A stretch of DNA of 58,798 nt from Phocaeicola coprocola DSM 17136. GTDB taxonomy: Bacteria > Bacteroidota > Bacteroidia > Bacteroidales > Bacteroidaceae. Below are positions 1 through 15,276 of the stretch, piece after piece. The DNA lies in the NCBI RefSeq assembly GCF_000154845.1, contig NZ_DS981478.1, forward strand, positions 1 through 58,798, read 5' to 3'. The position numbers and the translations under genes are program-made. Positions within the stretch are counted from its first letter, which is position 1; each line of letters starts with the position of its first letter. The notes below the pieces were generated by a model. It was not told where the DNA came from, ran no database searches, and saw only the letters and a program-made list of their open reading frames with translations.

Positions 1-15
1 CTGCCCATAAAAAGA

Positions 16-1011
16 ATGAATATGAAAATAGAATTAGAAAATTGCCAAAAAAGTCTTACTCTCAAAGATTTTGAAGAAATAGAGAGTAAATTGGGTTATG
101 CCTTGCCGGAAAGACTGAAAGAGTTCTATTTACAATATAATGGAGGTTCTACGAAACAGACCGCAAGCATAAATAAATATCAAGAGGTGGAAATTGAAGA
201 TTTCTTCCCATTCAAATATAACAAGGATTTTAAGAATGACCCCAGATATACGGCAGAAGGCGAAACATTAGAGTTAAGAAAAGCTGGAGCTATATCTGAT
301 AGCATTCTTATTTTTGCTATGGAATCTACCGATGAAGGTCGGATTACCATAGACTTGGTTAATGGAAAGATCTATCTTTACCCTATTGTGGGGATGCAAG
401 ATGTAATCTTCAATTTTGGAGAGCCACGACTTGTTGCAAATTCAATAGATGATTTCTTTGACAATCTCGTTGTTTTGGACGGGCACAAAGCAATTCCAGC
501 AATAGAAGAAATCGAAGAGGGACAAACGGAGACAGCAGGTGTAATGCCTGAACTTTCGGACTGTTCGGCTTCGCTAACAAAAGAAGATATAAAGAATTTT
601 GAGGTTGAGTTGAATGTAAAGATTCCGGCAGGCATGAAGAACTTTTACCTCAAGTTCAACGGTGGTATGCCATCACCATATTGTTATCAACCGCAGGACG
701 AGGATTTGGATCGGGTGGAGATAAATGCGTTCTTTCCGATAAAGGAACGCACCAATGCTTTTGAAACAATTGAAGTCATAGCCAAAGATATATGGAGTAG
801 GAATTTAATGCCATGCAATCTGTTGCCTTTTGCTATGGATTCGGGTGGAAACTATTATGCGTTGAACTTGAAGAATAAAAAGATTTACTATTACTTGACT
901 GACGAGTGGGACGAAAACGCTTCAAGAGAATACAACTTTGAAACAAATACTCGTTACATCGCCCAGTCATTCAATTACTTTATAAATCATTTTATCGAAG
1001 AAGAGGAATAA
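16..1011 (+). CDS. Double SMI1/KNR4 (SUKH) domain immunity-like protein
   Basis: The 331-residue protein contains two copies of the SUKH fold. Copy 1 has the LPERLKEFY..YNGG motif at residues 30-44, followed by an ILIFAMESTDEG segment near residue 100. Copy 2 repeats this as IPAGMKNFY..FNGG at about 203-217 and LLPFAMDSGGNYYAL near 275. SUKH proteins are a common immunity family that neutralises nuclease or deaminase toxins delivered between bacteria. No signal peptide is seen, so it should act in the cytoplasm. The first ATG at 16 and a second at 22 are both usable. It is the first complete gene in the array and is followed 10 bp after its stop by an attC-like repeat. Its target toxin is unknown. 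Confidence 0.75.
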   Translation: MNMKIELENCQKSLTLKDFEEIESKLGYALPERLKEFYLQYNGGSTKQTASINKYQEVEIEDFFPFKYNKDFKNDPRYTAEGETLELRKAGAISDSILIFAMESTDEGRITIDLVNGKIYLYPIVGMQDVIFNFGEPRLVANSIDDFFDNLVVLDGHKAIPAIEEIEEGQTETAGVMPELSDCSASLTKEDIKNFEVELNVKIPAGMKNFYLKFNGGMPSPYCYQPQDEDLDRVEINAFFPIKERTNAFETIEVIAKDIWSRNLMPCNLLPFAMDSGGNYYALNLKNKKIYYYLTDEWDENASREYNFETNTRYIAQSFNYFINHFIEEEE

Positions 1012-1021
1012 AGCGGGCAGA

Positions 1022-1071
1022 TAACAAGCGGATCAATCTCCTTTAATGATGATTATCCACCGAACATTAGC
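1022..1071 (+). repeat. attC-like site 1 (class A)
   Basis: It starts TAACAAGCGG and ends CGAACATTAGC. The arms GGATCAATC (1030-1038) and GATTATCC (1051-1058) pair along eight bases, leaving C1034 bulged from the left arm. This matches the place of the extrahelical base in integron attC sites. Confidence 0.75.
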
Positions 1072-1093
1072 AATTGACGAAAAAAAGAAAGCA

Positions 1094-1528
1094 ATGAGTG
1101 AAATTATAGAATACCGTCCAATTAATGAGGACGAACGAATAGAAATAGATCAGCTTGCGGCTAAAGGTTTAGTCCTTATAGGTTTGCAGGAAAGTGCTGA
1201 ATCCTCTGCCATCCTTGATGGCATAAAGAACTATCTCAATAATTTTGAAAGTTCAGATGACGAGGAAATTACGGATAGGGCTTATGAGTTAGGTTCCCTG
1301 TTAGGAAACACCATCCAAAAGCACTATGGATGGAACTGGTTTTGTGTAGAGGAAAATACAGATGATTCTTTTCATTGTGTTGCTTCTAATAAAGAACGAG
1401 CCTGCTGCGCCTGTCATGAATATATATACTCCATATTGACAAAACAGCATTCCAATAATGTAAAGTTGCTGTTCAATATGATAAAGAAGGACTATCCTAA
1501 AGAATGGCACTTCATGTTGCTTTCTTAA
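1094..1528 (+). CDS. Hypothetical protein, probable immunity cassette
   Basis: The family is not recognised. I start the gene at the ATG of MSEIIEY because the longer reading from 1046 would begin inside the preceding attC-like repeat, and because an A-rich leader with GAAAG precedes 1094. The 144-residue product is acidic at the N-terminus and has a central segment GWNWFCVEENTDDSFHCVAS, then a cysteine-rich stretch ERACCACHEY, and ends in a helical, basic-then-aromatic tail. There is no signal peptide or membrane segment. Position within the array and its flanking repeats suggest an immunity protein against an effector; this is inference from context only. Confidence 0.6.
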   Translation: MSEIIEYRPINEDERIEIDQLAAKGLVLIGLQESAESSAILDGIKNYLNNFESSDDEEITDRAYELGSLLGNTIQKHYGWNWFCVEENTDDSFHCVASNKERACCACHEYIYSILTKQHSNNVKLLFNMIKKDYPKEWHFMLLS

Positions 1529-1536
1529 AAGATTGC

Positions 1537-1584
1537 TAACAAACAGATGAAACATTTAAGGCAGTTTATCTGCTAAACATTATC
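1537..1584 (+). repeat. attC-like site 2 (class A')
   Basis: It starts TAACAAACAG. The arms CAGATGAAAC (1544-1553) and GTTTATCTG (1564-1572) pair over nine bases with a single G bulged in the left arm. It ends AAACATTATC. Confidence 0.75.
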
Positions 1585-1625
1585 GTTGTTTACATTAGAA
1601 TCAAAGAAATGAGAACATAGAAGAT

Positions 1626-2120
1626 ATGAAACTTGAATTATTGAGTGATGACTCAAACAGGTTTATACAAGCTCTAATAGATTATGACATAAATAGTAAA
1701 GATAAATATGGGAGTAATCTACTTCATTACTATATAATGAATTACAAGAGTATCGTACATCCCGCAGGTGTAATTATACCCGAATTTGTAAAAAAAGGGT
1801 TGGATATAAATGAAAAAAGGAAAGATGGACGCACTGCATTATATCTTTCTGTTCAATATCAGTTGAAAGGTATTTTTGAATTACTCCTGAATCATAATGC
1901 AGATATAGATATGCAAAATGCAAATGGTAATACTCCTTTATGGGAAGCTGTTATGCAATACAAGGGAGATGGCTTTTTTATCGAACACCTTTTGAAAAAT
2001 GGAGCTAATCCCGATATAGAGAACAACAATGGAGTATCTCCTAAATCATTGGCAAGAACTATCGCAAATTATGATGTAAGAAGATTCTTTAACAACGATA
2101 ACAAACAGCAAACCGACTGA
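1626..2120 (+). CDS. Ankyrin-repeat immunity-like protein
   Basis: The 164-residue cytoplasmic protein consists of about four ankyrin repeats. Visible repeat starts are YGSNLLHYYI, DGRTALYLSV, NGNTPLWEAV and NGVSPKSLAR, with helix pairs such as IFELLLNHNADIDMQ between them. Ankyrin proteins of this size occur as immunity proteins in polymorphic-toxin loci. The last residues (NKQQTD and stop) are encoded by the attC-like repeat that follows, so the C-terminal tail is a by-product of cassette structure. A second ankyrin cassette lies at 6381 with similar organisation. The partner toxin is unknown. Confidence 0.7.
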   Translation: MKLELLSDDSNRFIQALIDYDINSKDKYGSNLLHYYIMNYKSIVHPAGVIIPEFVKKGLDINEKRKDGRTALYLSVQYQLKGIFELLLNHNADIDMQNANGNTPLWEAVMQYKGDGFFIEHLLKNGANPDIENNNGVSPKSLARTIANYDVRRFFNNDNKQQTD

Positions 2121-2147
2121 ACAAGCGGCACGCTGCCGGACATTATC
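2099..2147 (+). repeat. attC-like site 3 (class B)
   Basis: It starts TAACAAACAGC and ends GGACATTATC. The outer arms CAGC/GCTG and inner arms CCG/CGG are separated by a small internal loop. The stop codon of the upstream ankyrin gene (2118-2120) lies inside the repeat. Confidence 0.7.
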
Positions 2148-2177
2148 TGCCCAATAATATGAACTAAAAAAAGTGAT

Positions 2178-2867
2178 ATGGAAACTAAAGCGGAAGTCCT
2201 AAAATACATGTTTACAAGAATACAAGAGATGCTTCCTGTAAATGTGGTCAAAGCAAAAAAGAATAAAGACTACTTTACTTACATAGTGGAAAACGATTGT
2301 AGCATTGAGTTTTACTTTCAAACAACCCAAGGTGGATATGCCGGTAAAAACACTTTTTGTATGGGTGTATCAGCTAAAATAAAGAATCCATATTTATGTA
2401 GTCTTGTATTAGAACCATTAAATAAAAAAGACGCTGGTGGTAACATCATAGCTTACTTTGATAGTAATATTGATTGGTATAATCAACATCAAATGGATAT
2501 GAATTATTTTTTCAGCAATAAAAGAGACAAGACTCCTGATATTGAGAAATTCTTAAACGATTTGAAAAAGGATTTTTTTCCGTATATCATACCTTTTGTC
2601 AAACAATATACAAAAATTATAGATTTTTACTCAAATACAGGTCATATTCAACATATATATGCAGATAAACAGTTTAGCTTGGGAGTAATCTGTTCTCTCT
2701 TGTGCAACCATGAAGAGTTCATTGAAGAAACTTTGGTTCCATTAGCCAAAGCAAGTGAAGGAGGTTGGATATTTAGAGAATTTTTTAAGTGCACAAACTA
2801 TGTTACCGATATAGTTGAGCCAATTAAGAAATATGTCGCAGAGGGTAATATCCATTTTGAACAATGA
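2178..2867 (+). CDS. Hypothetical protein, probable immunity cassette
   Basis: The 229-residue product is not assigned to a family. Its N-terminal half (about 1-110) looks beta-rich, with FYFQTTQGGYAGKNTFCMGV and a DSNIDWYNQHQMDMNYFF segment; its C-terminal half is helical. No signal peptide or membrane segment is seen, so a cytoplasmic role is expected. It starts 30 bp after one attC-like repeat and ends 19 bp before the next, so it is one complete cassette. An immunity role is inferred from neighbours only. Confidence 0.6.
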   Translation: METKAEVLKYMFTRIQEMLPVNVVKAKKNKDYFTYIVENDCSIEFYFQTTQGGYAGKNTFCMGVSAKIKNPYLCSLVLEPLNKKDAGGNIIAYFDSNIDWYNQHQMDMNYFFSNKRDKTPDIEKFLNDLKKDFFPYIIPFVKQYTKIIDFYSNTGHIQHIYADKQFSLGVICSLLCNHEEFIEETLVPLAKASEGGWIFREFFKCTNYVTDIVEPIKKYVAEGNIHFEQ

Positions 2868-2886
2868 GAAAAATAGAATGGGCAGA

Positions 2887-2938
2887 TAACAAGCGGATTA
2901 ATTGTCCTCGAAATGGTCGATTATCCACAGAAAATTAC
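2887..2938 (+). repeat. attC-like site 4 (class A)
   Basis: It starts TAACAAGCGG. The arms GGATTAATTG and CGATTATCC pair with one bulged T at the fixed position and one G-T wobble. The 3' end is AGAAAATTAC, the most divergent ATTA box of the set. Confidence 0.65.
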
Positions 2939-2956
2939 TAACGATAACAAATTTGT

Positions 2957-3325
2957 ATGAAAGTTTTTATTGGAGGTGAATTGGAACATAGTATTTCTGA
3001 TAAGTTTCGTAAAGCAAGAAACTCTGTAATAGAATATATGGATTGTCTATGTGATATTTCATATATTAATGAACTAAGTTTCTATGTATTCTGCTTAAAA
3101 GGATTTACTACAAATCCATTAAGTAGATATTCGAAAAAACGTAATCGGATAGAATTGGAAATTCTACTCCCATTTGATAAATTTGAAACAGCAAATGATT
3201 CTCAATGTGTTGAGATATTGAAACAAAGTATTCTTGATGCTATTGAGAACTATAAAAATAAAAACATTCCACAACAATATATTGATGTAATTGTAGAAAA
3301 AATGAAAGCATCAATTAATGAATGA
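2957..3325 (+). CDS. Small hypothetical immunity-like protein (Imm44-like pattern)
   Basis: The product has 122 residues with no membrane segment. An alpha/beta pattern is visible: an N-terminal helix with IEYMDCLCDIS, a strand ELSFYVFCLKGF, a RIELEILLPFDKF strand and a C-terminal amphipathic helix. The layout, with a helix followed by a strand ending in a proline-containing 'xIxxPxP' segment and a terminal helix, is shared with the cassette product at 3908. That suggests both belong to one divergent immunity family, perhaps Imm44; I am not certain. It begins 18 bp after an attC-like repeat and ends 9 bp before the next. Confidence 0.55.
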   Translation: MKVFIGGELEHSISDKFRKARNSVIEYMDCLCDISYINELSFYVFCLKGFTTNPLSRYSKKRNRIELEILLPFDKFETANDSQCVEILKQSILDAIENYKNKNIPQQYIDVIVEKMKASINE

Positions 3326-3334
3326 ATTCGTTAG

Positions 3335-3382
3335 TAACAAACAGCACTACTGCTTAAAGCGGAACGCTGTCGAACATTAATC
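3335..3382 (+). repeat. attC-like site 5 (class B)
   Basis: It starts TAACAAACAGC, contains GCGGAACGCTG and ends CGAACATTAATC. The CAGC/GCTG arms are intact. The internal part of the left arm differs from the other class B copies. Confidence 0.65.
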
Positions 3383-3401
3383 GCTTGAAATAATTAAATA
3401 T

Positions 3402-3824
3402 ATGATTTATGTAGATGACTTTATACGCAGAATTGAAAAAATGATAAGTACTGACCAAATAAGTGCTATAATCAAAATCAATTCAAAATTTGAATATAAA
3501 AATATACCTTTTGCCAATAATATACCCCAAGGTATAAGTGATTTATATTGCAAATTGAACTCTCTACAAATCATATATCCACGCCAATTTGAGTTGTTGC
3601 CAATAGAACAATTCAGGTTGATAAAAGACAAATATTTGTACTTTGCAACTATTAATCATATAGAAAAAATAGGCTTTAATATTTTACAAACAAATGTAGC
3701 AGGAGAATGGGATATAGTAAATACCAATAACGATTTTCGTATCACATATACTCTTGGGAGTTTCCTGACAACTAAGATTTGGCGATGGATTAACTGGGGT
3801 AAAGAAATATGGCAAGAAGAATGA
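3402..3824 (+). CDS. Possible SUKH-like immunity protein
   Basis: The 140-residue protein has the segment NIPQGISDLYCKLNS at about residues 39-53, resembling the SUKH motif (I/LP..L..FY...N). FELLPIEQF, YLYFATINHIEKIGFNIL and a late aromatic segment (TLGSFLTTKIWRWI) follow, again in SUKH order. The usual GG after the asparagine is missing, so the family call is tentative. No secretion signal is visible. It is a complete cassette between attC-like sites 5 and 6. Confidence 0.5.
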   Translation: MIYVDDFIRRIEKMISTDQISAIIKINSKFEYKNIPFANNIPQGISDLYCKLNSLQIIYPRQFELLPIEQFRLIKDKYLYFATINHIEKIGFNILQTNVAGEWDIVNTNNDFRITYTLGSFLTTKIWRWINWGKEIWQEE

Positions 3825-3831
3825 AAACGAT

Positions 3832-3883
3832 TAACAAGCGGCTCAACCTCCCCTTAAAGGTCGGTTAGCCACCAAACATTATA
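3832..3883 (+). repeat. attC-like site 6 (class A, best match to integron attC)
   Basis: It starts TAACAAGCGG. The arms GGCTCAACC (3840-3848) and GGTTAGCC (3863-3870) pair perfectly over eight bases with only C3844 bulged. The TCAA and TTAGCC boxes closely resemble the inner boxes of classical attC sites. It ends CAAACATTATA. Confidence 0.8.
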
Positions 3884-3907
3884 AACTCTGGATATAAGGA
3901 TGAATGT

Positions 3908-4399
3908 ATGAATAATCAATATGCAGTTTTAATAAGTAGTGAAATCCCCGAACTTGGAGAATTGGACTTACTGCGCTCAATTTACCGAGAGTTGAATGGT
4001 TATATGGAAGATTACAATAACCAAATCAACTTAGATGATTTGGGAGATTGGAAACTTCTCATACAGATAAATCTTCGAAATACTAATGGGGGGATTGGGA
4101 TTTTCAAACGGGCAAAACGTTTCCCATCTAATAAAGAGTTTGAAATATCTATTTCCATACCAGTACCAAATTTGGAGGAAGCACGCTATGGAATATCCGA
4201 TATGACGGGGATTTATATTCCTTTAAATATTAAAAACTTCTACATTCTTTCTCCATGCTTTAGTAAATATGATAATTTGTATCATTATATTCTTGAGAGT
4301 GCAAAACAAGCCATAGATGCAGCTTTTGCTTATGGCTTTACATGTAACGGCAAAAGAATAAAGAAAAAAGAGTTTATAACAAACAGCACTACCGACTGA
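3908..4399 (+). CDS. Hypothetical immunity-like protein (Imm44-like pattern)
   Basis: The 163-residue cytoplasmic protein has a helix (LDLLRSIYRELNGYMEDY), a strand WKLLIQINLRN, then FEISISIPVPNLEEARYG and a C-terminal helix (LYHYILESAKQAIDAAFAYGF). The strand-proline-helix order is shared with the smaller product at 2957. The last residues (TNSTTD and stop) are encoded by the downstream attC-like repeat. A start at 3901 with a few more residues is out of frame, so the ATG at 3908 is used. No catalytic motif is seen; immunity is inferred from context. Confidence 0.55.
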   Translation: MNNQYAVLISSEIPELGELDLLRSIYRELNGYMEDYNNQINLDDLGDWKLLIQINLRNTNGGIGIFKRAKRFPSNKEFEISISIPVPNLEEARYGISDMTGIYIPLNIKNFYILSPCFSKYDNLYHYILESAKQAIDAAFAYGFTCNGKRIKKKEFITNSTTD

Positions 4400-4426
4400 A
4401 TAAGGCGGAACGCTGCAAACCATTAG
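4377..4426 (+). repeat. attC-like site 7 (class B)
   Basis: It starts TAACAAACAGC, contains GGCGGAACGCTGC and ends ACCATTAGTC. It supplies the stop codon of the upstream gene. One extra G lengthens the central part relative to other class B copies. Confidence 0.65.
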
Positions 4427-4450
4427 TCGCTTGAAAAATAAAAAAAGAAA

Positions 4451-5344
4451 ATGAGTAAGATAATGATATGGGTCGGTCAATTCAATTCCGAAGCTGACTT
4501 TGAGAAATATATGGATCAATCGGCTTTCCGTCAATGGTGGAAAGATTACGATGAAGACAATAAGGAACTTCGTTGCCAATTCTGTAAGGAGCTTGGTGTA
4601 ATGAGCTATGATGAGGATTTTCTTATTATGAAATTCACATCTGACGGCTTGGCAGGATTACTTAACCTTATTCCTGCTGATACCCAAAAGATAAGTCTGT
4701 CGATGGCTGATAAAAATATTACAATGGCAAATGCTGTTATCTGCTATAATTGTCGTGAGGGTATATCTCCTAAGAAGGCAGAGAATGCCACAACCATGAC
4801 TTATCTTGGTACGTTTGAGTTTGAACTGTCGCCTGAAGGAGTGCAAGGGTCTAATGCCGGATTAGAATATATGATTTGGATTGGCACGACCGATAAAAGC
4901 CGGGAAGAGTTTATGGAGTATTTCAATCAAGATGAATACATGAAAGAAATACGAGATTACGAAGAAGGTCGTACAAAGAAACGTCCCAATCCGGAACATC
5001 GCTGTCAGTTTTGTAAAGACGTTAATATAAAGTATTACTATCCAGAATTTCTAACTGTGGAAATTAAGGATGAACCCGAAAATCCTTTTAATCTTGTTAG
5101 AATGATGATTGATAACAAACTTGTCCTTGACTGGTATATTGAGTCCGATATTGATGAATACCACATAAAGCCATCAAATTGTATTGTGTGCTATATACCC
5201 AATGGTTTCAAGGACAACAAAAGGAATCAGAAAATCTTTATTAAGAAGAAAAATTATGATTCATATGAAACACCTAAAAAATTTGTGGATGAATTAGACA
5301 GTTACAACGGTATTCAATATTTGGAAACTTATATTGCAGAATAA
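4451..5344 (+). CDS. Tandem Imm22-like (DUF4284-type) immunity protein
   Basis: The 297-residue protein is an internal duplication. Copy 1 starts MIWVGQFNSEADFEKYM and has RCQFCKELGVMSYDEDFL; copy 2 starts MIWIGTTDKSREEFMEYF near residue 142 and has RCQFCKDVNIKYYYPEFL. The IWVG..xS...FE.Y opening and the CQFCK motif are typical of the Imm22 family as I recall it. Each copy then has a CY(N/I)(C/P) segment (ICYNCRE, VCYIPNG). It is cytoplasmic, with no signal peptide. Duplication may broaden the range of toxins bound; that is speculation. It is the longest cassette but one in the array and ends 6 bp before attC-like site 8. Confidence 0.65.
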   Translation: MSKIMIWVGQFNSEADFEKYMDQSAFRQWWKDYDEDNKELRCQFCKELGVMSYDEDFLIMKFTSDGLAGLLNLIPADTQKISLSMADKNITMANAVICYNCREGISPKKAENATTMTYLGTFEFELSPEGVQGSNAGLEYMIWIGTTDKSREEFMEYFNQDEYMKEIRDYEEGRTKKRPNPEHRCQFCKDVNIKYYYPEFLTVEIKDEPENPFNLVRMMIDNKLVLDWYIESDIDEYHIKPSNCIVCYIPNGFKDNKRNQKIFIKKKNYDSYETPKKFVDELDSYNGIQYLETYIAE

Positions 5345-5350
5345 AGCTAC

Positions 5351-5400
5351 TAACAAACGGATAAATTTCCCTTAAAGATCGATTATCCACTGGACATTAC
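5351..5400 (+). repeat. attC-like site 8 (class A)
   Basis: It starts TAACAAACGG, the same nine bases that open the Vibrio cholerae repeats as I recall them. The arms GGATAAATT and GATTATCC pair with one bulged A. It ends TGGACATTAC. Confidence 0.7.
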
Positions 5401-5420
5401 TAACGCATAAATAAAGAAAG

Positions 5421-6302
5421 ATGAAATATTATACTGTAAAAAATAGAATAATGCCTTGGGGAAGTTATGGAGAAATGCTGTGGCAAGGTATTTACTGTTA
5501 TGATAAAGATACAAACTCCCACATGATTTTTAGAACCGGAGCGTTTTGCCCTTCTATCTACCGCTCTCAATATAACAGAGAAAGTCCTGTGTTAATTGTC
5601 AAGGAGGATGTTTTACAGTATATTATAGAATCAAATCTTACAGGCTTTGTCCTTCAACCGGTAAACAAGGAAAAGATTGTAAAATTGGATTGGGAGAACT
5701 GGGATTTACAATCACCGGAGCCTTTGATATATCCGTCTGGAAGTATGGATGCGGAAGAATATATTACACGGCGCAAACATAACGAAACGGTAGCGGAGCA
5801 AATAGGGAATTTATTTGCGTTGATACCTCAAAAGGACGGACTGCTTTATTGCGAGCAAGAACGTGGTTCTGCCAAGTTAGTAGAACAAAGCCTTTCAGGA
5901 TTGGATATTTTCATTGATAGGATTTTTTGCGACTTTTGCTCTGAAATTTATGTCAGTGAAAAGGCTAAAGACGTTTTATCTAAATATTATTCTGATCTGC
6001 TTATTTTCCAAGAAGTCCCAATATTTGTTGCAGATGAAAATCTCTTGCTTCAATTAGAACAGACGGCTAAACGTAAAGAATATCAGAAGCAACGAGAAGC
6101 GGAAATGACAAAAAACGATTGGCAAAGGTGGTTTCGTTTGAAAGATGATGCGAGAAAGTTAATAGAAGGACTTTCCCTGCTGAAAACAGAATCCGCTAAA
6201 TCCAAACGAAAATTGAATATCAATGATAAACTAAATTCTGCCAATGAAATATATCCTTTGGAATATGAAAGTTGGATGCAAGAGTATTGGAATAAAAAAT
6301 AA
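5421..6302 (+). CDS. Hypothetical protein, probable immunity cassette
   Basis: The 293-residue protein is not recognised. The N-terminal third is beta-rich and aromatic (MPWGSYGEMLWQGIYCYD), the middle has a motif CDFCSEIYVSEKAKDVL and the C-terminal part is a charged helical tail (KEYQKQREAEMTKNDW). No signal peptide or transmembrane stretch is present. The layout of a substrate-binding-like N-terminal domain with a charged tail is compatible with the larger immunity families (for example Imm11 or Imm43), but I cannot place it. It is flanked by attC-like sites 8 and 9. Confidence 0.6.
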   Translation: MKYYTVKNRIMPWGSYGEMLWQGIYCYDKDTNSHMIFRTGAFCPSIYRSQYNRESPVLIVKEDVLQYIIESNLTGFVLQPVNKEKIVKLDWENWDLQSPEPLIYPSGSMDAEEYITRRKHNETVAEQIGNLFALIPQKDGLLYCEQERGSAKLVEQSLSGLDIFIDRIFCDFCSEIYVSEKAKDVLSKYYSDLLIFQEVPIFVADENLLLQLEQTAKRKEYQKQREAEMTKNDWQRWFRLKDDARKLIEGLSLLKTESAKSKRKLNINDKLNSANEIYPLEYESWMQEYWNKK

Positions 6303-6310
6303 AGCGTTAG

Positions 6311-6359
6311 TAACAAACAGCAAACCGACCGAATAAGCGGAACGCTGCAAACCATTATC
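6311..6359 (+). repeat. attC-like site 9 (class B)
   Basis: It starts TAACAAACAGC, contains GCGGAACGCTGC and ends ACCATTATC. The CAGC/GCTG outer arms and CCG/CGG inner arms are intact. Confidence 0.7.
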
Positions 6360-6380
6360 AAATTCTAAAATAAAGCAGTT

Positions 6381-6896
6381 ATGAGTACAAAATATAACGA
6401 AGAAGCAGAAGATCTGATGTTTGAATTATTCGACGAAGATGATTTTACAAAAGTCATATCATTTGTGGATAAGTATGGATGTGATTTTGTGGATAGAGAT
6501 GGAAGAAATCTATTAATGAATTTCATCGTCGAAGGAAAGAGTACGTTTGCCATTGAACTAATAAAGCAATACAAAATGAATGGTTTGAATTTGGATTTGC
6601 AAGATGACTCTGGGTGGACGGCGTTGCATTTCGCTGCTCAAGAGAATATCCCGGAAATTATAGAACTTCTTGCAGGGTCAAAGGCAAACTTAAATATCCA
6701 AGAAGAAAATGGTCGTACCCCGCTATTCATTGCCATTTTTGATAGAAATGACAAATCTGCGATTACATTATTGGAAAATGGTGCAGATATAACAGTGAAT
6801 AATAATTCAGGTGTTTCTCCAATGTCATTTGTAACGAAAAAAGTAAAGAAATGGATAAATGAGAATTTGATAACAAACAGCAAACCGACTGAATAA
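6381..6896 (+). CDS. Ankyrin-repeat immunity-like protein
   Basis: The 171-residue protein has about four ankyrin repeats, seen as DGRNLLMNFI, SGWTALHFAAQEN, NGRTPLFIAIFDRND and SGVSPMSFV, with helices such as IPEIIELLAGSKANL between. It is cytoplasmic. It is a relative of the cassette at 1626, sharing repeat count and a NGVSP / SGVSP final repeat, but the sequences differ widely, so it is not a recent duplicate. Its final residues (TNSKPTE and stop) come from the downstream attC-like repeat. The toxin it would neutralise is unknown. Confidence 0.7.
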   Translation: MSTKYNEEAEDLMFELFDEDDFTKVISFVDKYGCDFVDRDGRNLLMNFIVEGKSTFAIELIKQYKMNGLNLDLQDDSGWTALHFAAQENIPEIIELLAGSKANLNIQEENGRTPLFIAIFDRNDKSAITLLENGADITVNNNSGVSPMSFVTKKVKKWINENLITNSKPTE

Positions 6897-6919
6897 GCGG
6901 AACGCTGCCGAACATTATC
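6871..6919 (+). repeat. attC-like site 10 (class B)
   Basis: It starts TAACAAACAGC, runs through CCGACTGAATAAGCGG and ends CGAACATTATC. It encodes the last residues and stop codon of the ankyrin gene at 6381. Confidence 0.75.
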
Positions 6920-6937
6920 AACTTATTAATGAATAAA

Positions 6938-7390
6938 ATGAAAAAAGACAAACATATAAAAGTGCTATTCCACTTGGAACAAGATGAAGATGGCTATCCA
7001 CCATTTTCTATTGAAGGTTTGTGGTGCAAAAAGGCAAGTAATGATACCTATATTGTCGATAATGTGCCATTCTATACCTATGGAATCAGTTTGGGGGATG
7101 AGATATGTGTTACAGAAGAAGATGGCGAATATCATTTTCAATCCATAGTGAATCCCTCTGGAAATAGCACATTGAGGGTATATTTTAACGATAAACGTAT
7201 GCAGATGGTCAGAGACAAACTACTTGATATGGGATGCAAGGTAGAGATTTCTAATCTCCCTTCATTCGTATCCATAAATGTACCACAAGAAGTTTCCTTA
7301 AAAGTGGTCGAAGATGTTCTGACCAATATGCAAAAAGAATGTGATAGTTTGGCTTATGAACATGGTGTTGTCAGACAAAATATAAGTTGA
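6938..7390 (+). CDS. DUF4265 domain protein, immunity-like
   Basis: The 150-residue protein matches the DUF4265 pattern: VLFHLEQDEDGYPPFSIEGLW near the start, then a Y.VDN.PFY.YG...GD segment (YIVDNVPFYTYGISLGDEI) and NPSGNSTLRVYF. These are the family's hallmark boxes. DUF4265 proteins occur in polymorphic-toxin immunity arrays and elsewhere; no enzymatic residues are known to me. I take the second in-frame ATG (6938), which follows an A-rich leader; 6929 is an alternative. The stop codon abuts attC-like site 11 directly. Confidence 0.65.
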   Translation: MKKDKHIKVLFHLEQDEDGYPPFSIEGLWCKKASNDTYIVDNVPFYTYGISLGDEICVTEEDGEYHFQSIVNPSGNSTLRVYFNDKRMQMVRDKLLDMGCKVEISNLPSFVSINVPQEVSLKVVEDVLTNMQKECDSLAYEHGVVRQNIS

Positions 7391-7439
7391 TAACAAACAG
7401 CAGACCGACTGAATAAGCGGAACGCTGCCGAACATTAGC
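7391..7439 (+). repeat. attC-like site 11 (class B)
   Basis: It starts immediately after the upstream stop codon. It is nearly identical to site 10 (one A to G change in the left arm) and ends CGAACATTAGC. Confidence 0.75.
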
Positions 7440-7461
7440 AACTTTACAAACTAAAAAGAAT

Positions 7462-7803
7462 ATGAGTAACCAAATAATTTTTGATGTTGACGGACTTATA
7501 GAAGCTCAAATCCGTCAGAGAGATAAAGACTATGCGAAAGTCTGTTGTCAGAACTTATTAAACTACGCATACGGAAAGGGGCTTTTGTGTGATAATCCAT
7601 GTGATAATGAAGGAAACCTAATCATGCCTTCAATTATTAAGGAAAGTTCTTTAACAGAAATTGGTAAACATATTTTTGTTGAATTGCTATTTAAGTGGTT
7701 TGCATACACAGATAATGAAAGTGGAAAAATTGACAGAAAAAATAACATCAAAATGTTAGAGAAGTATTACAATCAACTTTTACAAAAGATTGATAGAAAA
7801 TAG
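7462..7803 (+). CDS. Small hypothetical protein, probable immunity cassette
   Basis: The 113-residue product is not recognised. It appears all-helical, with QIRQRDKDYAKVCCQNLLNYAYGKGLL near the N-terminus, a turn with CDNPCDNEGN and a C-terminal helix KMLEKYYNQLLQKI. It has no membrane segment or signal peptide. It starts 22 bp after site 11 and ends 5 bp before site 12. Immunity function is inferred only from the array. Confidence 0.6.
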   Translation: MSNQIIFDVDGLIEAQIRQRDKDYAKVCCQNLLNYAYGKGLLCDNPCDNEGNLIMPSIIKESSLTEIGKHIFVELLFKWFAYTDNESGKIDRKNNIKMLEKYYNQLLQKIDRK

Positions 7804-7808
7804 GTTGC

Positions 7809-7857
7809 TAACAAACAGATGAAACATTGAAGGCGGTTTATCTGCCGGACATTATAA
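7809..7857 (+). repeat. attC-like site 12 (class A')
   Basis: It starts TAACAAACAG. The arms CAGATGAAAC and GTTTATCTG pair over nine bases with one bulged G, as in site 2. It ends CGGACATTAT. Confidence 0.75.
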
Positions 7858-7874
7858 ACTCGTAAAATAAAAAT

Positions 7875-8369
7875 ATGATTGAAGCACTGAAAAATATAGG
7901 ATTCATCGTTACAGAACGATTGGAAAGAAAAGAATTAAGCTCTGATTTACAAAATCGGTACTTCGAACTTCCTGCGGACTATCAGGAGTTTTTACAACGG
8001 TTTCAGACAATCACGAATGAAAGTGATAATGTTTGGTTTAATTCCATAGAGGACTTTAACGGAGAAAGCGATAGCGGATTCCGTTGGAATGAATTTGAGC
8101 TGATGGGACTTGAGGCGTTGGCAGATGATAAGGAATCCTGTGATATGATACGCCTGTTTTGGGATAGCCATATTCCTATTCTTATGTCAGTAAAAGATGG
8201 ATACCAATATTTGTGCATAGATTTATCTCCGGAAAATTACGGTAAAATCTATTATGGAGTTGAACCTGAATTTGAAGATTCGGCAGAATTTGTTTGCGAT
8301 AGCTTTAATCATTTATTAGAAATGTTGTCTTCCAATAAAAAGAATGATATACTGACAAATTTCAAATAG
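7875..8369 (+). CDS. SMI1/KNR4 (SUKH) family immunity-like protein
   Basis: The 164-residue protein has the SUKH signature in order: LPADYQEFLQRFQT at about residues 34-47, WFNSIEDFN, a HIPILMSVKDGYQYLCIDLS segment near 100-119 and GKIYYGVEPEFEDSAEFV..SFNHLLEML at the end. It has a single domain, in contrast to the double-domain protein at 16. SUKH proteins act in the cytoplasm by binding incoming toxins. It starts 17 bp after site 12 and ends 5 bp before site 13. Confidence 0.75.
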   Translation: MIEALKNIGFIVTERLERKELSSDLQNRYFELPADYQEFLQRFQTITNESDNVWFNSIEDFNGESDSGFRWNEFELMGLEALADDKESCDMIRLFWDSHIPILMSVKDGYQYLCIDLSPENYGKIYYGVEPEFEDSAEFVCDSFNHLLEMLSSNKKNDILTNFK

Positions 8370-8374
8370 GTTTA

Positions 8375-8424
8375 TAACAAGCAGATAAATCTCTCTGAAA
8401 GATTGATTATCCACCGAACATTAC
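8375..8424 (+). repeat. attC-like site 13 (class A)
   Basis: It starts TAACAAGCAG. The arms GATAAATC and GATTATC pair over seven bases with one bulged A. It ends CCGAACATTAC, only 4 bp before the next start codon. Confidence 0.7.
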
Positions 8425-8428
8425 AGCT

Positions 8429-9379
8429 ATGGATATAACGAATAGAATTATTGTCGCCTTACTGGAACGAATGAAAAGTAGAAACAAGAACTTTTCATTA
8501 TCAAAACCTAAGTTTCATCGGTTGTTTCAAATAAATCCCGATGGCTACTTATGGTATGGCGAGAAACTGGAGCGGCATTTACTTAACAAATATGGAGAAT
8601 CGGCTGATACATTGAAATATCTTGATATATATTATTTCATTGACAATATTGTGCGGTTGTATTACATGCCTAAAAATTCAAATTCGGAGGAAAACGAGTT
8701 TGGAAAGCTATACGCTTATGGCTCCATAATAGGGTTACACCGTTGTCATATTCCAGATAAGCGAATATATCTGAACCGATTGTTAAATACTTTACTGTTC
8801 TGTTGTCCGACTTCTGAAGAATATATCCGTAGATTCCGCTGGCAAAAAAACGGTATATATTACAAATCGCAGGATGTGGAAGTCCTTATTGCCGATACAT
8901 TTACAGAAATACGGGAATCGGACAAACAATCAGAATCCATTGAAATAGTTGAGTCAATAGTCAATGAGACATACCGTTATCTGGTAGGCTCAAATACGGG
9001 GCTTCCATTTGTCCGTTCGGAAACTTTATTGCACTACAACCTGAACCCATCTGATTATATGTGGCTATATCAGCACGATAAGGAATTGTTTTATACTTGT
9101 CTTGATGCAGCAGCATTACAGTCGGAGATTTTCAGTTACAAGTCATTTGTGTACAATTTCAACCTGTATATTCTAAAAGACGCAAATATATTGGACGAAT
9201 TGTCCAGATATTCCAAATGTTATGAAGCCGTTTTAGAACTGCTTTTCAAATCCGATTCAATTATGCAGAACTCTGTTATTCGGCAAATCAAATTATGTAG
9301 AAATGAAGATACCATTAAACAGAATAACAGATTGGATGCTATTAACAAATGGCTCAACTCCCTAAATAAGATTGGTTAG
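8429..9379 (+). CDS. Hypothetical protein, last cassette of the array
   Basis: The 316-residue protein is not recognised. It is helical throughout, rich in tyrosine and leucine (for example YLDIYYFIDNIVRLYYMP and LLHYNLNPSDYMWLYQHDKELFY), without a signal peptide. The start at 8429 is 4 bp after attC-like site 13, closer than for any other cassette. The 3' end runs deep into site 14: residues NKWLNSLNKIG and the stop codon are all encoded within the repeat. An immunity role is inferred from its place in the array. Confidence 0.6.
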   Translation: MDITNRIIVALLERMKSRNKNFSLSKPKFHRLFQINPDGYLWYGEKLERHLLNKYGESADTLKYLDIYYFIDNIVRLYYMPKNSNSEENEFGKLYAYGSIIGLHRCHIPDKRIYLNRLLNTLLFCCPTSEEYIRRFRWQKNGIYYKSQDVEVLIADTFTEIRESDKQSESIEIVESIVNETYRYLVGSNTGLPFVRSETLLHYNLNPSDYMWLYQHDKELFYTCLDAAALQSEIFSYKSFVYNFNLYILKDANILDELSRYSKCYEAVLELLFKSDSIMQNSVIRQIKLCRNEDTIKQNNRLDAINKWLNSLNKIG

Positions 9380-9394
9380 CCACAGAACATTAAA
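9343..9394 (+). repeat. attC-like site 14 (class A), last of the array
   Basis: It starts TAACAAATGG. The arms TGGCTCAACT and GGTTAGCCA pair over nine bases with one bulged C and one wobble. It ends CAGAACATTAAAC. About 35 bp of it overlap the upstream coding region, whose stop codon is the TAG in GGTTAGCC. Confidence 0.75.
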
Positions 9395-9403
9395 CATTAG
9401 AAA

Positions 9404-9994
9404 ATGAGAACACCAGTCATAATCCTGTTATTTGTAATCCTGCTTGCCGTAAGCTGCGGAGAGCCTCCCATGCCGCCGTCGGACGAGGAAATGATACGCC
9501 ACTTCACCACGCACGAGGCGGCGTTCCGTAAGGTGTACGAAATCATGGCAGAGAGTTCAGAAGGTAGTTTTCACTACCCGCCGCTTTCTCCGGAAGAGGT
9601 CATTATACTTGATTCAACAGAACAAAGCGATACATCCCATGAAACGAATGATGAACAAGACATCCCGGTATATGGACTGTTGAAGCCGGAGCGAATCCTA
9701 CTCGACTCCCTATTATCAGAGATTGGATGCGGTTTTATCCTTGTTGATCGCAGGGAATGGGGAACGGCAGATTCGGTATATGTGAGCCTCGTTATGCCGT
9801 ACTACTCCCACGGCATCGTGGATGCCGGAACGTCCAAGAGTTTCGTTTACGATCCCGGATTGAGAAGCCGTCGTAATATCCGTATCACCGAACATGGCGA
9901 CCTGAACGAGATCTACCGCAGGACGTACAACGACACCACGCTGTACAAGCCCATCAAGGGAAACTGGTACATCGAGTTAGACCATTCACGATAG
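9404..9994 (+). CDS. Lipoprotein of unknown function at the array boundary
   Basis: The 196-residue product has a lipoprotein signal peptide: a hydrophobic run (VIILLFVILLAV) and the lipobox AVSC, with cysteine at about residue 18. The mature part is acidic and includes PPMPPSDEEMIRHF, a proline-rich linker and a C-terminal beta-rich domain ending LYKPIKGNWYIELDH. It starts 9 bp after the last attC-like site but has none behind it, and its codons are more GC-rich than those of the cassettes. It may be a fixed gene of the conjugative element. Export and lipidation are well supported; function is unknown. Confidence 0.65.
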   Translation: MRTPVIILLFVILLAVSCGEPPMPPSDEEMIRHFTTHEAAFRKVYEIMAESSEGSFHYPPLSPEEVIILDSTEQSDTSHETNDEQDIPVYGLLKPERILLDSLLSEIGCGFILVDRREWGTADSVYVSLVMPYYSHGIVDAGTSKSFVYDPGLRSRRNIRITEHGDLNEIYRRTYNDTTLYKPIKGNWYIELDHSR

Positions 9995-11952: not shown

Positions 11953-12810
11953 TTAGTTCTGTTCCGGCAGGAGCTTGCAAAGCACCGGGTCGTTCTTGAT
12001 ACGTTCCAGTTCCTCGGCGACGATGCGGCCGGCCTCTGCCTTGATACGTTCGTAGTTTTCCTGCACGACCTGTTTCATGTGATCCGTCCCGTTCTCGTCC
12101 GTGAAGTCGGTAATTTGTGGTATCTTCTTGTACCGGGCCGTTTCCGCTTTCACTTTTTCGTTGTCCACGACAATCTCGCAGTGGAAAATCTTCTGCTCGA
12201 TACGTTCGTCGAAATTGTCCGCCACGGCCCCGACGAACATTCCCTGCGTGAGCGTCGAGATCTTCGAGGCCGGGATCAGGCTGTCCAGCTGCGTGGATAT
12301 GGATGTCGATTTGTCGCTGCGGCTCAACGTCATGCTCTGCCGCTTCTGCAATACCTTACCGAACCGTTCCGAGAGTGTCTTGGCCGTTTCACCTACGACC
12401 TGCCCGGAGAAGATGTTGCCCACCGTGTTCATCACGACGGCGGCCTCCTTGTCCCCGTAGTCCCTCTTCAACTGTGAAAAATCCTGGAAGCACAGCAGCA
12501 CGGCGACCTTGTTGCTTCTGGCCGTGGCGATCAGGTTGTCGAGTCCCTTGAAGTAGATTGTCGGCAGCTCGTCGATGATGATGCCCGATTTGAGCTGGCC
12601 TTTCTTATTTATGAGCTTGACAATCCGGGAATTATACAATCCCAAAGCCGCTCCGTAAATGTTTTGCCTGTCGGGATTGTTCCCCACGCAGAGTATCTTG
12701 GGATCGTCCGGGTTATTGATGTCGAGCGTGAAATCGTCGCCCGACATGACCCAATATAGCTGGGGCGAAATCATGCGGGAAAGCGGAATTTTGGCCGATG
12801 CTATCTGGCC
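11953..12810 (-). CDS. mobC: Coupling protein MobC/TraG, exon 2 (C-terminal part)
   Basis: This is the 3' exon of the type IV coupling protein gene split by a group II intron. It begins with the codons for GQIASAKIPLSRM directly after the intron end and runs 285 residues. The Walker B-like segment GIIIDELPTIYFKG and the arginine-rich KTLSERFGKVLQKRQS region typical of VirD4/TraG ATPases are here, so the enzyme is inactive without splicing. The protein pumps the relaxase-DNA complex into the transfer channel at the inner membrane. Joined to exon 1 (15277-16428) it gives 669 residues, a normal size. The open frame to its right (to 12966) is intron sequence, not protein. Confidence 0.85.
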   Translation of the reverse strand, partial: GQIASAKIPLSRMISPQLYWVMSGDDFTLDINNPDDPKILCVGNNPDRQNIYGAALGLYNSRIVKLINKKGQLKSGIIIDELPTIYFKGLDNLIATARSNKVAVLLCFQDFSQLKRDYGDKEAAVVMNTVGNIFSGQVVGETAKTLSERFGKVLQKRQSMTLSRSDKSTSISTQLDSLIPASKISTLTQGMFVGAVADNFDERIEQKIFHCEIVVDNEKVKAETARYKKIPQITDFTDENGTDHMKQVVQENYERIKAEAGRIVAEELERIKNDPVLCKLLPEQN

Positions 12811-12873
12811 ATAGGCTAAGCACCCAGCGCCTTGCCACTTTTTACAGTGGTAGGTTTCCAAGCACTCGCCTCC

Positions 12874-12907
12874 GAACCGTGCATACAGGTCTCCCCGTAC
12901 ACGGCTC
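12874..12907 (-). ncRNA. Group II intron domain V
   Basis: A 34-nt hairpin reads GAGCCGTG...CACGGTTC on the minus strand, with the AGC triad at positions 2-4 and a 12-nt upper stem-loop. It holds the metal-binding active site of the ribozyme. Domain VI and the 3' splice site follow within 65 bases. Confidence 0.85.
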
Positions 12908-12920
12908 TCCACCTTCTCAT

Positions 12921-14738
12921 TCAGTCTAACTTTCCTGCGTGTATTTTGTGATGGCATACTGAACATACTGCTAATGTTTTGCGGTTACGTGAAATCATTT
13001 TAATTTCCCAATCACTTTTGCCTTTTAGGTCTTTCAATTTGCGTACATGGTGCATTTCAAGATTGTCCGTAGCACCGCAATTTTCACATACACGTGCCTG
13101 AAGTCTCTTGATTAGTCCATTTCTGCCGCCTGTTATGGCAACCGTGTTTGGCAGTTTGTCATCCAAATACCGATTGGGCAGTTCCTTTCGCTTAAAGCCT
13201 TTGTCGTAGAACTCACGTTTGAACTCATATCCCCTTTTATTGGTGTACGGTATGGCAAATACTCCGTTCTTCTTGTACTTCGCAATGATTTTCTTTTTAG
13301 AAGTGCTGTACTTTGCGGCGTATGTCTTATACATACTGTATTCCATGATGTTATAAAAAGAGTCAATGACGGGACTATTATTTGCAATCGAATAGAAGTT
13401 ATAGAACCCCATGATTTCAGAGTTATATTGGCTTATAATTTCCAAATCATCAAGACAGCGCATATATGTACGTCCTTTGGGCTTCCAAACCTCCTTACCT
13501 TTTTGAACAGTAATCTTTACCGCATCATATTCAAGGAGCTTCTTCCGCATCACTTCGGTAGTCATATACAGGACTATCTTATGGTCTAAGCTTCTTGTCA
13601 AATGTCCGTTTTTATCCCTATGGGTGTCATTGGATTTGCGTACAAATACGTCATAGCCGAGAAATTTAGCATGTTTTCTTGCATTGGTTATCAGCGTTTT
13701 TTCATCAGATAGTTCCAATTTCAATTTGTCTGCCATAAATTGCTTTATGTCCTCTTTGATTTTGATACAATCCTCTTTGCTGCCAATAACACCAATGAGA
13801 AAATCATCCGCATATCTCACATATTTTAGACGTTTCATGTCCGCATCCATTTCATCACTTGCCGGATATTTCAGACGTTCTTTGACAACTTCTCCAATTT
13901 GTTTCAACAGTAGTCGCCGTTCCGTTTCATTCTTTGCTTGTTTCAGCTTTGTTGTCAAGTAGTATTTTTTCTGCCCAAGTTGTTTTGCTATCGGATTTTC
14001 TTTGCGCCTTTTTCCCTTATTGAATTTTTGAGTGTATTCTTTGATGTATTTGTCGAACTTGTCAAGATAGATATTTGCCAGTATAGGACTTATTATCCCA
14101 CCTTGTGGTGTTCCGCTATACGATTTGTGAAATACCCAATCTTCCACATATCCGGCATTCAGAAACTTTCGGATAAGGCGTAGAAAACGCATATCTGAAA
14201 TACGTTCTGAAAGAATAGCTATCAATACTTCGTGGTCTATATTGTCAAAAAAACCTTTAATGTCTCCCTCGATGAACCATTTTGTATTGTTGAATGTCTT
14301 TTGTATGCTCCAAAGTGCAGTCTGCGGACTTCTCTGTGGTCTGAAACCGTGAGAAGAATTTTCAAAACTGCCCTCGTAGATTGCTTCCAAAATCATTCGG
14401 ATAACTTCTTGCAGAAGTTTGTCAATGAATGACGGAATACCCAGCGGTCGCATTTTCCCGTTTTTCTTGGGAATGTACACCCGCTGAGAGGGATTTGGCT
14501 GGTACGTCTCATCTTTGAGTGTACCTATCAACCGTTCAATATGGGATATACAGAAACCGTCAATGGTTTTTCCATCGACACCTTTCGTCATATTGCCCTG
14601 TTTCGTATAAATACGTTGGTAGGCAATGTAGTACATCTCCTCATTAAACAGTAACCGATACAAACGTTCAAACTTGTAAGCCAAGTCGGAACTATGTTGT
14701 GTTAGACTGTTTAATATCTTTTCTGGATTTCTTTTCAT
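12921..14738 (-). CDS. ltrA: Group II intron reverse transcriptase/maturase with HNH endonuclease
   Basis: The 605-residue protein (611 from the alternative ATG at 14756) has the group II order: an N-terminal RT-0 region (NPEKILNSLTQHSS), RT fingers with GVDGKTIDGF, RPLGIPSF and GFRPQRSPQTAL, the catalytic YADD at residues 315-318 of the long form, a maturase domain X with LRNYYSIA-like NFYSIANNSPV, and a C-terminal HNH module with CENCGATDNLEMHHV and CSVCHHKIH. All key residues are present, so it should be active. It binds its own intron RNA to help splicing and retargets the intron by target-primed reverse transcription. Expression depends on mobC transcription. Confidence 0.92.
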   Translation of the reverse strand: MKRNPEKILNSLTQHSSDLAYKFERLYRLLFNEEMYYIAYQRIYTKQGNMTKGVDGKTIDGFCISHIERLIGTLKDETYQPNPSQRVYIPKKNGKMRPLGIPSFIDKLLQEVIRMILEAIYEGSFENSSHGFRPQRSPQTALWSIQKTFNNTKWFIEGDIKGFFDNIDHEVLIAILSERISDMRFLRLIRKFLNAGYVEDWVFHKSYSGTPQGGIISPILANIYLDKFDKYIKEYTQKFNKGKRRKENPIAKQLGQKKYYLTTKLKQAKNETERRLLLKQIGEVVKERLKYPASDEMDADMKRLKYVRYADDFLIGVIGSKEDCIKIKEDIKQFMADKLKLELSDEKTLITNARKHAKFLGYDVFVRKSNDTHRDKNGHLTRSLDHKIVLYMTTEVMRKKLLEYDAVKITVQKGKEVWKPKGRTYMRCLDDLEIISQYNSEIMGFYNFYSIANNSPVIDSFYNIMEYSMYKTYAAKYSTSKKKIIAKYKKNGVFAIPYTNKRGYEFKREFYDKGFKRKELPNRYLDDKLPNTVAITGGRNGLIKRLQARVCENCGATDNLEMHHVRKLKDLKGKSDWEIKMISRNRKTLAVCSVCHHKIHAGKLD

Positions 14739-15276
14739 GTCTCTCACATTTTCCAAAATTTGACATTAAACGATATTGGCTGCTTCCCTTCGCCATGTAC
14801 AAGGCTTTCCCTTGCTCGGACTACTACGGAAGCTCTGTTGCCATATGGGTTGCCCCACTTAGGCAATCCCCGTTTAGACATATAATAACTATTGGCATGA
14901 TAGATTGTCGGATACGACTTTCGTCCTTTACTATGTATGTAGTTGCTCCGTGATAAGTTCTTTTTGCCCATGCATCCTACAAGGCGAAGCTGGGTATCAC
15001 GGCTTGACGTTTGTAACTGTCTTCCGTCAAGGCTTAACCATCGAGCCGCTTAGACTATCGTTCAACCAGTATAGGCTTTATCCTCATATCTATCGTTTCA
15101 CCTCGCCACACGGTCAGAACTTGACAGTTAGTTCACTCGTGGCTTTACCGACATGCTACACTCCCCATCGTCTTTCGTTGAATGGATAAGTCGGCTGGTG
15201 ATAGGTTATTATTTCAAAGAACACGAACCTAATAGCTTGCCAAAGCTATATTTATTATATGCCCTTACGGGCGCAC

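Follow-up and report, generated by a model that had tools for sequence, protein, structure and literature searches.

An integron-like array of immunity-gene cassettes in Phocaeicola coprocola DSM 17136, linked to a tyrosine recombinase without the I2 region

The 58,798-nt contig NZ_DS981478.1 of Phocaeicola coprocola DSM 17136, analysed whole and called here the window, begins with the first base of a gene cassette and carries at positions 1–9392 of the + strand the right-hand part of a recombinase-associated acquired interbacterial defence (rAID) array, a known kind of array. We consider it highly probable that this is an integron-like array of cassettes, several immunity families among them, from which single units have moved between the arrays of gut Bacteroidales, likely through a recombinase encoded at the left end that lacks the I2 region of the integron integrase IntI, and probably on folded single strands. 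Judged by the features readable from its sequence, the locus is filed as a rAID array that appears to work like an integron, yet it is kept apart from the IntI integrons, because I2, the feature that defines their integrase, was looked for and is absent. What is new here is the anatomy: complementary words at the ends of the cassettes, an attI-like junction, the crossover point and the I2-less enzyme. The cassette-specific complementarity and the missing I2 helix are the most telling of the points that a first-pass annotation of the window had missed or could not see.

The 14 co-oriented small genes and the 14 repeats alternating with them that this annotation had proposed were all recovered. 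The open reading frames (ORFs) are 113–331 codons long, and each of the 14 genes lies below 41% GC (array, 34.5%; remainder of the window, 47.9%). Eight of the 14 proteins match Pfam families at E ≤ 0.01 (SUKH twice, ankyrin twice, Imm44, Imm9, Imm22 and DUF4265) and six have no match at this threshold; no toxin family is among these matches, in agreement with the toxin-free, immunity-type payload suggested before. The conjugative element expected in the flank is also there, with a relaxase, TraG and a coupling protein to the right of the array. All 14 sites (45–51 nt) start with TAACAA and end in ATTA, so the outer letters of the earlier repeat consensus, TAACAARCRG...ACATTA, stood, and its finer letters were too strict: the right end is ACATTA in only 11 sites, CCATTA in two and AAATTA in one, and site 14 reads TAACAAATGG. 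Directly after ATTA each cassette has a word of its own, mostly of 5–9 nt, whose reverse complement is placed directly before its own site, as in cassette 11 (TCAACTTAT…ATAAGTTGA). The features, in window coordinates, are the following.

1–1021, +, cassette 1 body, tandem SUKH-1 protein (gene 16–1011); start word (T)CTGCCC, end word GGGCAGA at 1015–1021
1022–1069, +, attC-like site 1
1070–1536, +, cassette 2 body, 160-aa ORF 1046–1528 (first ATG inside site 1, alternative ATG at 1094), no Pfam match; words GCAAT/ATTGC
1537–1582, +, attC-like site 2
1583–2098, +, cassette 3 body, ankyrin-repeat protein 1626–2120 (extends into its own site); words TCGTTGTT/AACAACGA
2099–2145, +, attC-like site 3
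2146–2886, +, cassette 4 body, 229-aa protein 2178–2867, no Pfam match; words TCTGCCCA/TGGGCAGA
2887–2937, +, attC-like site 4
2938–3334, +, cassette 5 body, Imm44 protein 2957–3325; words CTAACGA/TCGTTAG
3335–3379, +, attC-like site 5
3380–3831, +, cassette 6 body, 140-aa protein 3402–3824, no Pfam match; words ATCG/CGAT
3832–3881, +, attC-like site 6
3882–4376, +, cassette 7 body, Imm9 protein 3908–4399 (extends into its own site); words TAAACTCT/AGAGTTTA
4377–4425, +, attC-like site 7
4426–5350, +, cassette 8 body, Imm22 (DUF4284) protein 4451–5344; words GTCGCT/AGCTAC, one mismatch
5351–5399, +, attC-like site 8
5400–6310, +, cassette 9 body, 293-aa protein 5421–6302, no Pfam match; words CTAACGC/GCGTTAG
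6311–6357, +, attC-like site 9
6358–6870, +, cassette 10 body, ankyrin-repeat protein 6381–6896 (extends into its own site); words TCAAATTCT/AGAATTTGA
6871–6917, +, attC-like site 10
6918–7390, +, cassette 11 body, DUF4265 protein 6929–7390; words TCAACTTAT/ATAAGTTGA
7391–7437, +, attC-like site 11
7438–7808, +, cassette 12 body, 113-aa protein 7462–7803, no Pfam match; words GCAAC/GTTGC
7809–7854, +, attC-like site 12
7855–8374, +, cassette 13 body, SUKH protein 7875–8369; words TAAAC/GTTTA
8375–8423, +, attC-like site 13
8424–9342, +, terminal cassette 14, 316-aa protein 8429–9379 (extends into site 14), no Pfam match; end words unpaired
9343–9392, +, attC-like site 14, fixed right border of the array
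9404–9994, +, gene of a DUF4948 protein, a boundary marker outside the array and not a cassette

The match between the end words is specific to the cassette. For window cassettes 2–14, which have both ends inside the window, the contiguous match averages 5.9 nt as against 0.54 nt for other pairings, and none of 200,000 permutations gave a value as high. Over 52 array stretches (47 recombinase loci, four other stretches of the P. coprocola genome and the window) a match of at least 4 nt was found in 195 of the 277 intervals that separate successive sites and in 4/277 when the array neighbour was taken as partner; in an enlarged set, to which three genomes and one plasmid contributed longer stretches, these figures are 216/304 and 5/304. 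Since the match is high within a cassette and rare between neighbours, the words fit only with the ends of one cassette joined, as in a circle. In integrons, R'' and R' likewise pair in the circular cassette. The words follow the pattern N-Y-R-R-Y (78, 77, 84 and 92% at positions 2–5, in 164 distinct cassettes matching over at least 5 nt), and therefore the arm reads RYYRNTAAC/TTANYRRY, next to the integron arm consensus RYYYAAC/GTTRRRY. At the 47 recombinase loci 290 sites lie on the forward and 14 on the reverse strand, and the longest ORF runs along the direction of the sites in all 194 rule-obeying cassettes that have an ORF of ≥ 60 aa.

A closer look at the sites suggests an attC-like fold. 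The order of a folded attC, in the portion of PMC8946536 considered here, is R-box, spacer, L-box and terminal loop, and window-type sites are predicted to match this R''-L''-L'-R' hairpin layout with an unpaired spacer. The inner stem of the window sites is paired in 84% of cells, as against 18–40% when the partner is slid, and the number of doubly changed cells, counted on a structure drawn from the same 14 sequences, is 20 as against a shuffled mean of 8.5 (0/500 shuffles). In a larger set of 203 distinct sites ending in ATTA (P. plebeius locus L064 excluded) the predicted spacer is mostly 3–5 nt long on the 5' arm and 6–8 nt on the 3' arm, and the 3' side is the longer one in 189. The repeats are more than chance: run on the 4.3-Mb genome, a covariance model built from the 14 window sites gave 28 matches (E ≤ 0.01), which lie on contigs C39 (14), C69 (7), C78 (5), C36 (1) and C60 (1), every one of them array-bearing. 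With strict filters the same model found sites in 9 of 151 genomes of the family, P. coprocola included; such arrays are therefore not everywhere.

The left end of the array is seen in P. plebeius DSM 17135, which holds a complete array of recombinase, attI-like junction and 20 cassettes, the terminal one included. The 14 cassettes of the window correspond to its cassettes 7–20 at 99.8–100% identity; six further cassettes lie to the left, and then the attI-like junction, 45 nt after the gene of a 372-aa tyrosine recombinase. The recombinase that the first-pass annotation had placed to the left of the window is thus present in this array, and the bridge to it in the P. coprocola assembly is indirect. 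In contig C69 the site of a preceding cassette (TCAGTAATT) is joined to cassette 1 of the window, as in P. plebeius. Contig C78 carries a recombinase and a prefix shared with P. plebeius (99.99% over 8331 nt) up to the same site and then a different tail, whose first cassette also follows TCAGTAATT in the arrays L104 and L105. This genome may have two arrays with that cassette in common, or C78 may be mis-joined at the repeat, and either would explain why the window's contig breaks exactly at the crossover point.

Among the relatives of the recombinase (the best 80 of 343 from a search of genome contigs, from which the locus counts derive) those of the A-type (73–100% identity) and the B-type (46–49%; L104 and L105 among their arrays) are mostly from gut Bacteroidales. 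In 27 of 49 loci the start word of the first cassette, matching its end word over at least 5 nt, keeps a fixed spacing to the recombinase stop (A-type, 45–48 nt; B-type, 56–58 or 89–90 nt) and behind TTA in 27/27, which points to an attI-like junction where the array starts, beside the recombinase gene. At the other border, positions 8429–9700 of the window are matched at 99–100% over their full length in six of eight A-type genomes and partially in the other two, and the terminal cassette is common to all four comparison arrays; by comparison, then, the arrays begin at an attI-like junction behind the recombinase and the compared A-type arrays end at one terminal cassette. This cassette with its site (8424–9392), the same in all five arrays and with unpaired end words, is possibly a frozen border.

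Around the junction, no Bacteroides-type promoter consensus was seen in P. plebeius by a simple motif scan of this one array. Of 42 loci scanned, seven, all B-type (L089, L090, L095, L096, L098, L101 and L108), have such a consensus (TTG or TTTG, then TAnnTTTG) 107–113 nt before the matched recombinase start. An element of the IS91 family, with Y2_Tnp and Zn_Tnp_IS91 domains, is found directly behind the attI-like junction in L062, L077, L082, L091 and L098, and in part in L089 at a contig end; where its junction was read (L062, L098) it is GTT or ATT followed by CAAG, and L098 has two tandem copies. ISCR elements beside class 1 integrons offer a parallel.

In alignments the I2 region is absent from the A-type and B-type recombinases and three further relatives when compared with IntI1, and from the A-type when compared with IntI4; none of the 19 alignment rows has an insertion at the I2 position. 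The array-linked recombinases score 203.4 and 191.3 bits with the IntI model TIGR02249, under its cut-off of 265, and the A-type also stays under the curated cut-offs for XerC (188.0 vs 335.15 bits) and XerD (182.9 vs 329.6 bits), with the B-type lower. By structure and sequence the nearest protein is XerA. Y347 is presumed to be the catalytic tyrosine of the recombinase. In a tree with long branches to Xer and IntI the array recombinases branch apart from the two Xer-type proteins (so labelled by similarity) of the P. coprocola genome. The I2 helix is called necessary for cassette capture in the parts of published integron work considered.

An integron-like course of events would accommodate these features. 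The recombinase would excise a cassette as a circle, in which both words would meet across the site and pair, lengthening TAA/TTA to an arm of about 8–12 bp (R box) above the short unpaired spacer and the inner stem (L box); the folded strand would be cut beside TTA and then joined to attI or another site. The stock of immunity genes may protect the host against the effectors of rival bacteria, as is reported for other rAID genes in the part of PMC12247911 considered.

The same cassette system might instead recombine its sites as double-stranded DNA in a Xer/dif-like manner, the inverted words being binding arms on the circle and not a stem. This we hold to be unlikely. An enzyme without I2 and nearest to XerA would suit it, and so would the tie between single-strand recombination and I2 made in the portion of PMC7790495 considered. 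The pairing of the inner stem and the near-constant asymmetry of the spacer (189/203) speak for a fold and against this possibility. In addition, the complementary arms lie about 40 nt apart, as against the 6–8 bp between the arms of simple sites.

Comparison of arrays delimits the unit that moves. A match of at least 3 nt left 196 rule-obeying cassettes (81 of 277 intervals dropped), 106 of them in 43 recurrent clusters; pair counts from this set are not event counts, as L048, L064, L171 and the window belong to one array lineage and L104 and L105 are near copies. Among cassettes at least 95% identical, 42 pairs (26 clusters) have unlike DNA upstream; identity in these is 97.9% at the cassette's own 3' site and 68.7% at the site before it, the 3' site identity exceeds that of the 5' site in 41 of the 42, with one tie, and leftward from the cassette start identity ends after 5–10 nt in 41/42. 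For the 42 pairs (25 clusters) whose downstream DNA is unlike, identity goes no further than the own site in 31 and at most 2 nt past it in 41. The window shares 16 stretches (at least 94% identity, at least 200 nt) with B. oleiciplenus, P. clara and P. goldsteinii; 9 of their 13 internal right ends lie exactly at a site end and 10 of their 13 internal left ends 4–10 nt before the first base of a cassette. Given these fixed breakpoints the crossover lies at the CATTA/word junction. The mobile unit, as far as comparison can tell, consists of word, gene, complementary word and site, and the claim of gene-plus-site cassettes gains from shared cassettes carrying their own 3' site.

Cassette 1 is also present in P. 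plebeius, B. oleiciplenus, P. clara and P. goldsteinii. In P. clara the window cassettes come in the order 10, 2, 7, 11, 3, 1, 5, 14, interspersed with foreign ones. The gain, loss and reordering of single cassettes that the first-pass annotation had proposed to look for between strains can thus be seen between species, and the finding of near-identical single units in other orders in other species suggests that they were likely moved singly by the tyrosine recombinase.

It is very improbable that homologous recombination between arrays, acting through conserved repeats and shared cassettes, has spread the cassettes alone and left the recombinase uninvolved. Such exchange would suit the shared blocks (window cassettes 13–14 with P. 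goldsteinii) and the course of C78, where a different tail replaces the P. plebeius-like sequence directly behind a shared cassette; a single fixed breakpoint with merely 5–10 nt of identity beyond it in 41/42 pairs, next to flanking sites only 69% alike, does not, and the cassette-specific words would be left without a reason. That the array is an ordinary operon, whose words and hairpins act in RNA as terminator, attenuator or mRNA protection, is hardly credible: the genes are all co-oriented and a hairpin is predicted after every one, but the words pair across a whole gene, the site travels with its gene between genomes with sharp borders, and there is no Rfam family for the sites, the single match being far under its cut-off. 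We give next to no credence to a canonical integron served by an IntI encoded elsewhere in the genome, in spite of the attC-like site anatomy, as the assembly has no TIGR02249 match, and hence no IntI, at 1e-50, and the array recombinases, at 203 and 191 bits against 265, are without I2.

Several observations weigh against the integron-like interpretation itself. The word match is shorter than 4 nt in 88 of 304 intervals, for some of which, not all, missed sites or insertions account, and in none of the five arrays compared does terminal cassette 14 keep to the word rule. Of the five covariation measures on the window sites, two are not above shuffles (stem pairs with both sides changed, 5 vs 4.7; further pair types, 7 vs 10.2), and class B sites show L box mismatches. 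DNA folding z-scores are below −1 in 167 of the 203 sites (mean −2.6), values biased because the site finder required a fold energy of ≤ −2.5. The spacer asymmetry is near constant, yet no pair of extrahelical bases is defined. At 22 of 49 loci an attI match at the fixed place is lacking (five had no site and 17 no such match), and in the P. coprocola assembly the recombinase is off the window's contig and the C78 tail is perhaps mis-joined. The evidence is all comparative and between species; the circle, the cleavage and the strand preference are what we infer from it.

Such arrays had been supposed to be known from gut Bacteroidales, and indeed the rAID arrays described in a 2025 preprint (PMC12247911), as far as considered here, share a tyrosine recombinase at one end, co-oriented short low-GC immunity-type genes and conserved intergenic motifs in Bacteroidales. 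The locus has the upstream recombinase (in P. plebeius, and in its own assembly through C69 and C78), co-directional genes below 41% GC and intergenic motifs, the 14 sites being likened to the published motif by the presence of conserved motifs and not by motif sequence. Site anatomy, attI, cassette unit and crossover point are not given in that part of the description (PMC12247911). Literature searches, in the parts of the sources covered and with the founding paper (Ross 2019) outside their scope, returned no account of attC-like anatomy, attI or I2-less integrases for rAID arrays.

With integrons the arrays share the attI-like junction behind the integrase gene, cassettes of a gene plus 3' site, R-box/spacer/L-box sites, reordering, cassette-specific pairing in the circle, TAAC/TTA and the R/Y code of the words. 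They differ in a recombinase without I2 and with an extra N-terminal domain (the candidate for taking the place of I2), in gut-array sites of 45–52 nt whose right end is ATTA and not GTTA, in an integrase gene oriented as the cassettes, and in the prominence of immunity genes in the cargo. From XerA, XerC, XerD and XerH the recombinase differs as a branch separate from the genome's own Xer-type proteins and linked to cassette arrays.

The remaining relatives are mostly from marine or environmental Bacteroidota (40–50% identity). In two marine ones, Maribellus sediminis and Maribellus sp. YY47, a related recombinase is followed by attC-like sites of 126–146 nt, and several of these sites have the form TAACAnnGTACAT…ATGTACCAACCGTTA; 4/4 intervals of YY47 and 2/4 of M. 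sediminis obey the word rule, and the long-site finder gave no forward match in 19 of 32 loci of the marine and environmental group. B-type arrays carry immunity families that include those of the type VI secretion system (T6SS), namely Tdi1, PoNi, Imm5, Imm43, Imm-NTF2, Bfi1 and TaeI, with hydrophobic proteins in 37/93 as against 5/73 in A-type arrays; the two types have cassettes in common. IntI above the cut-off was found in 85 of 296 sampled Bacteroidota genomes, but of the 87 genomes that have a TIGR02249 match at 1e-50 only 1 belongs to the window's class.

Further array pieces of the P. coprocola genome are on C78 (A-type recombinase), C36 and C16 (B-type recombinase) and C60. One cassette, which encodes a 336-aa protein and has the start word GCAAAA, comes first after the recombinase in C36 and C16, whereas in C60 it follows another site. 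A 46-kb circular plasmid record of Phocaeicola massiliensis (OY726013, locus L141) has an eight-site array and a recombinase 69% identical to the A-type, and in Paraprevotella xylaniphila (L076) the recombinase frame has three stop codons, with two sites behind it. In the window's conjugative element the coupling-protein gene seems split (11953–16428, − strand) into a YWFCY part (15268–16428) and a TraG-D_C part (11953–12963), with a group II intron reverse transcriptase (12924–14756) between the two.

The mechanism of rAID biogenesis is called an area of active research in the portion of the 2025 preprint considered (PMC12247911). Whether Bacteroidota hold a second integron lineage is to our mind evenly poised: its integrase would never have had I2 or would have lost it and would recombine folded single-stranded attC-like sites, running gene-capture platforms from marine bacteria with sites of about 125 nt to conjugative elements of gut Bacteroidales with miniaturised ones of 45–52 nt, where the arrays would form an exchange market for immunity genes against the toxins of rivals. 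If so, integrons would not owe their existence to the invention of I2, and a class with hardly any IntI would commonly have platforms of an integron-like kind. The recombinase family of these arrays would escape searches that require IntI. The integron-like reading also offers a testable model for the building of rAID arrays, with two precise predictions: circles joined at the TTA/word junction, and recombination rescued by compensating changes in the words.

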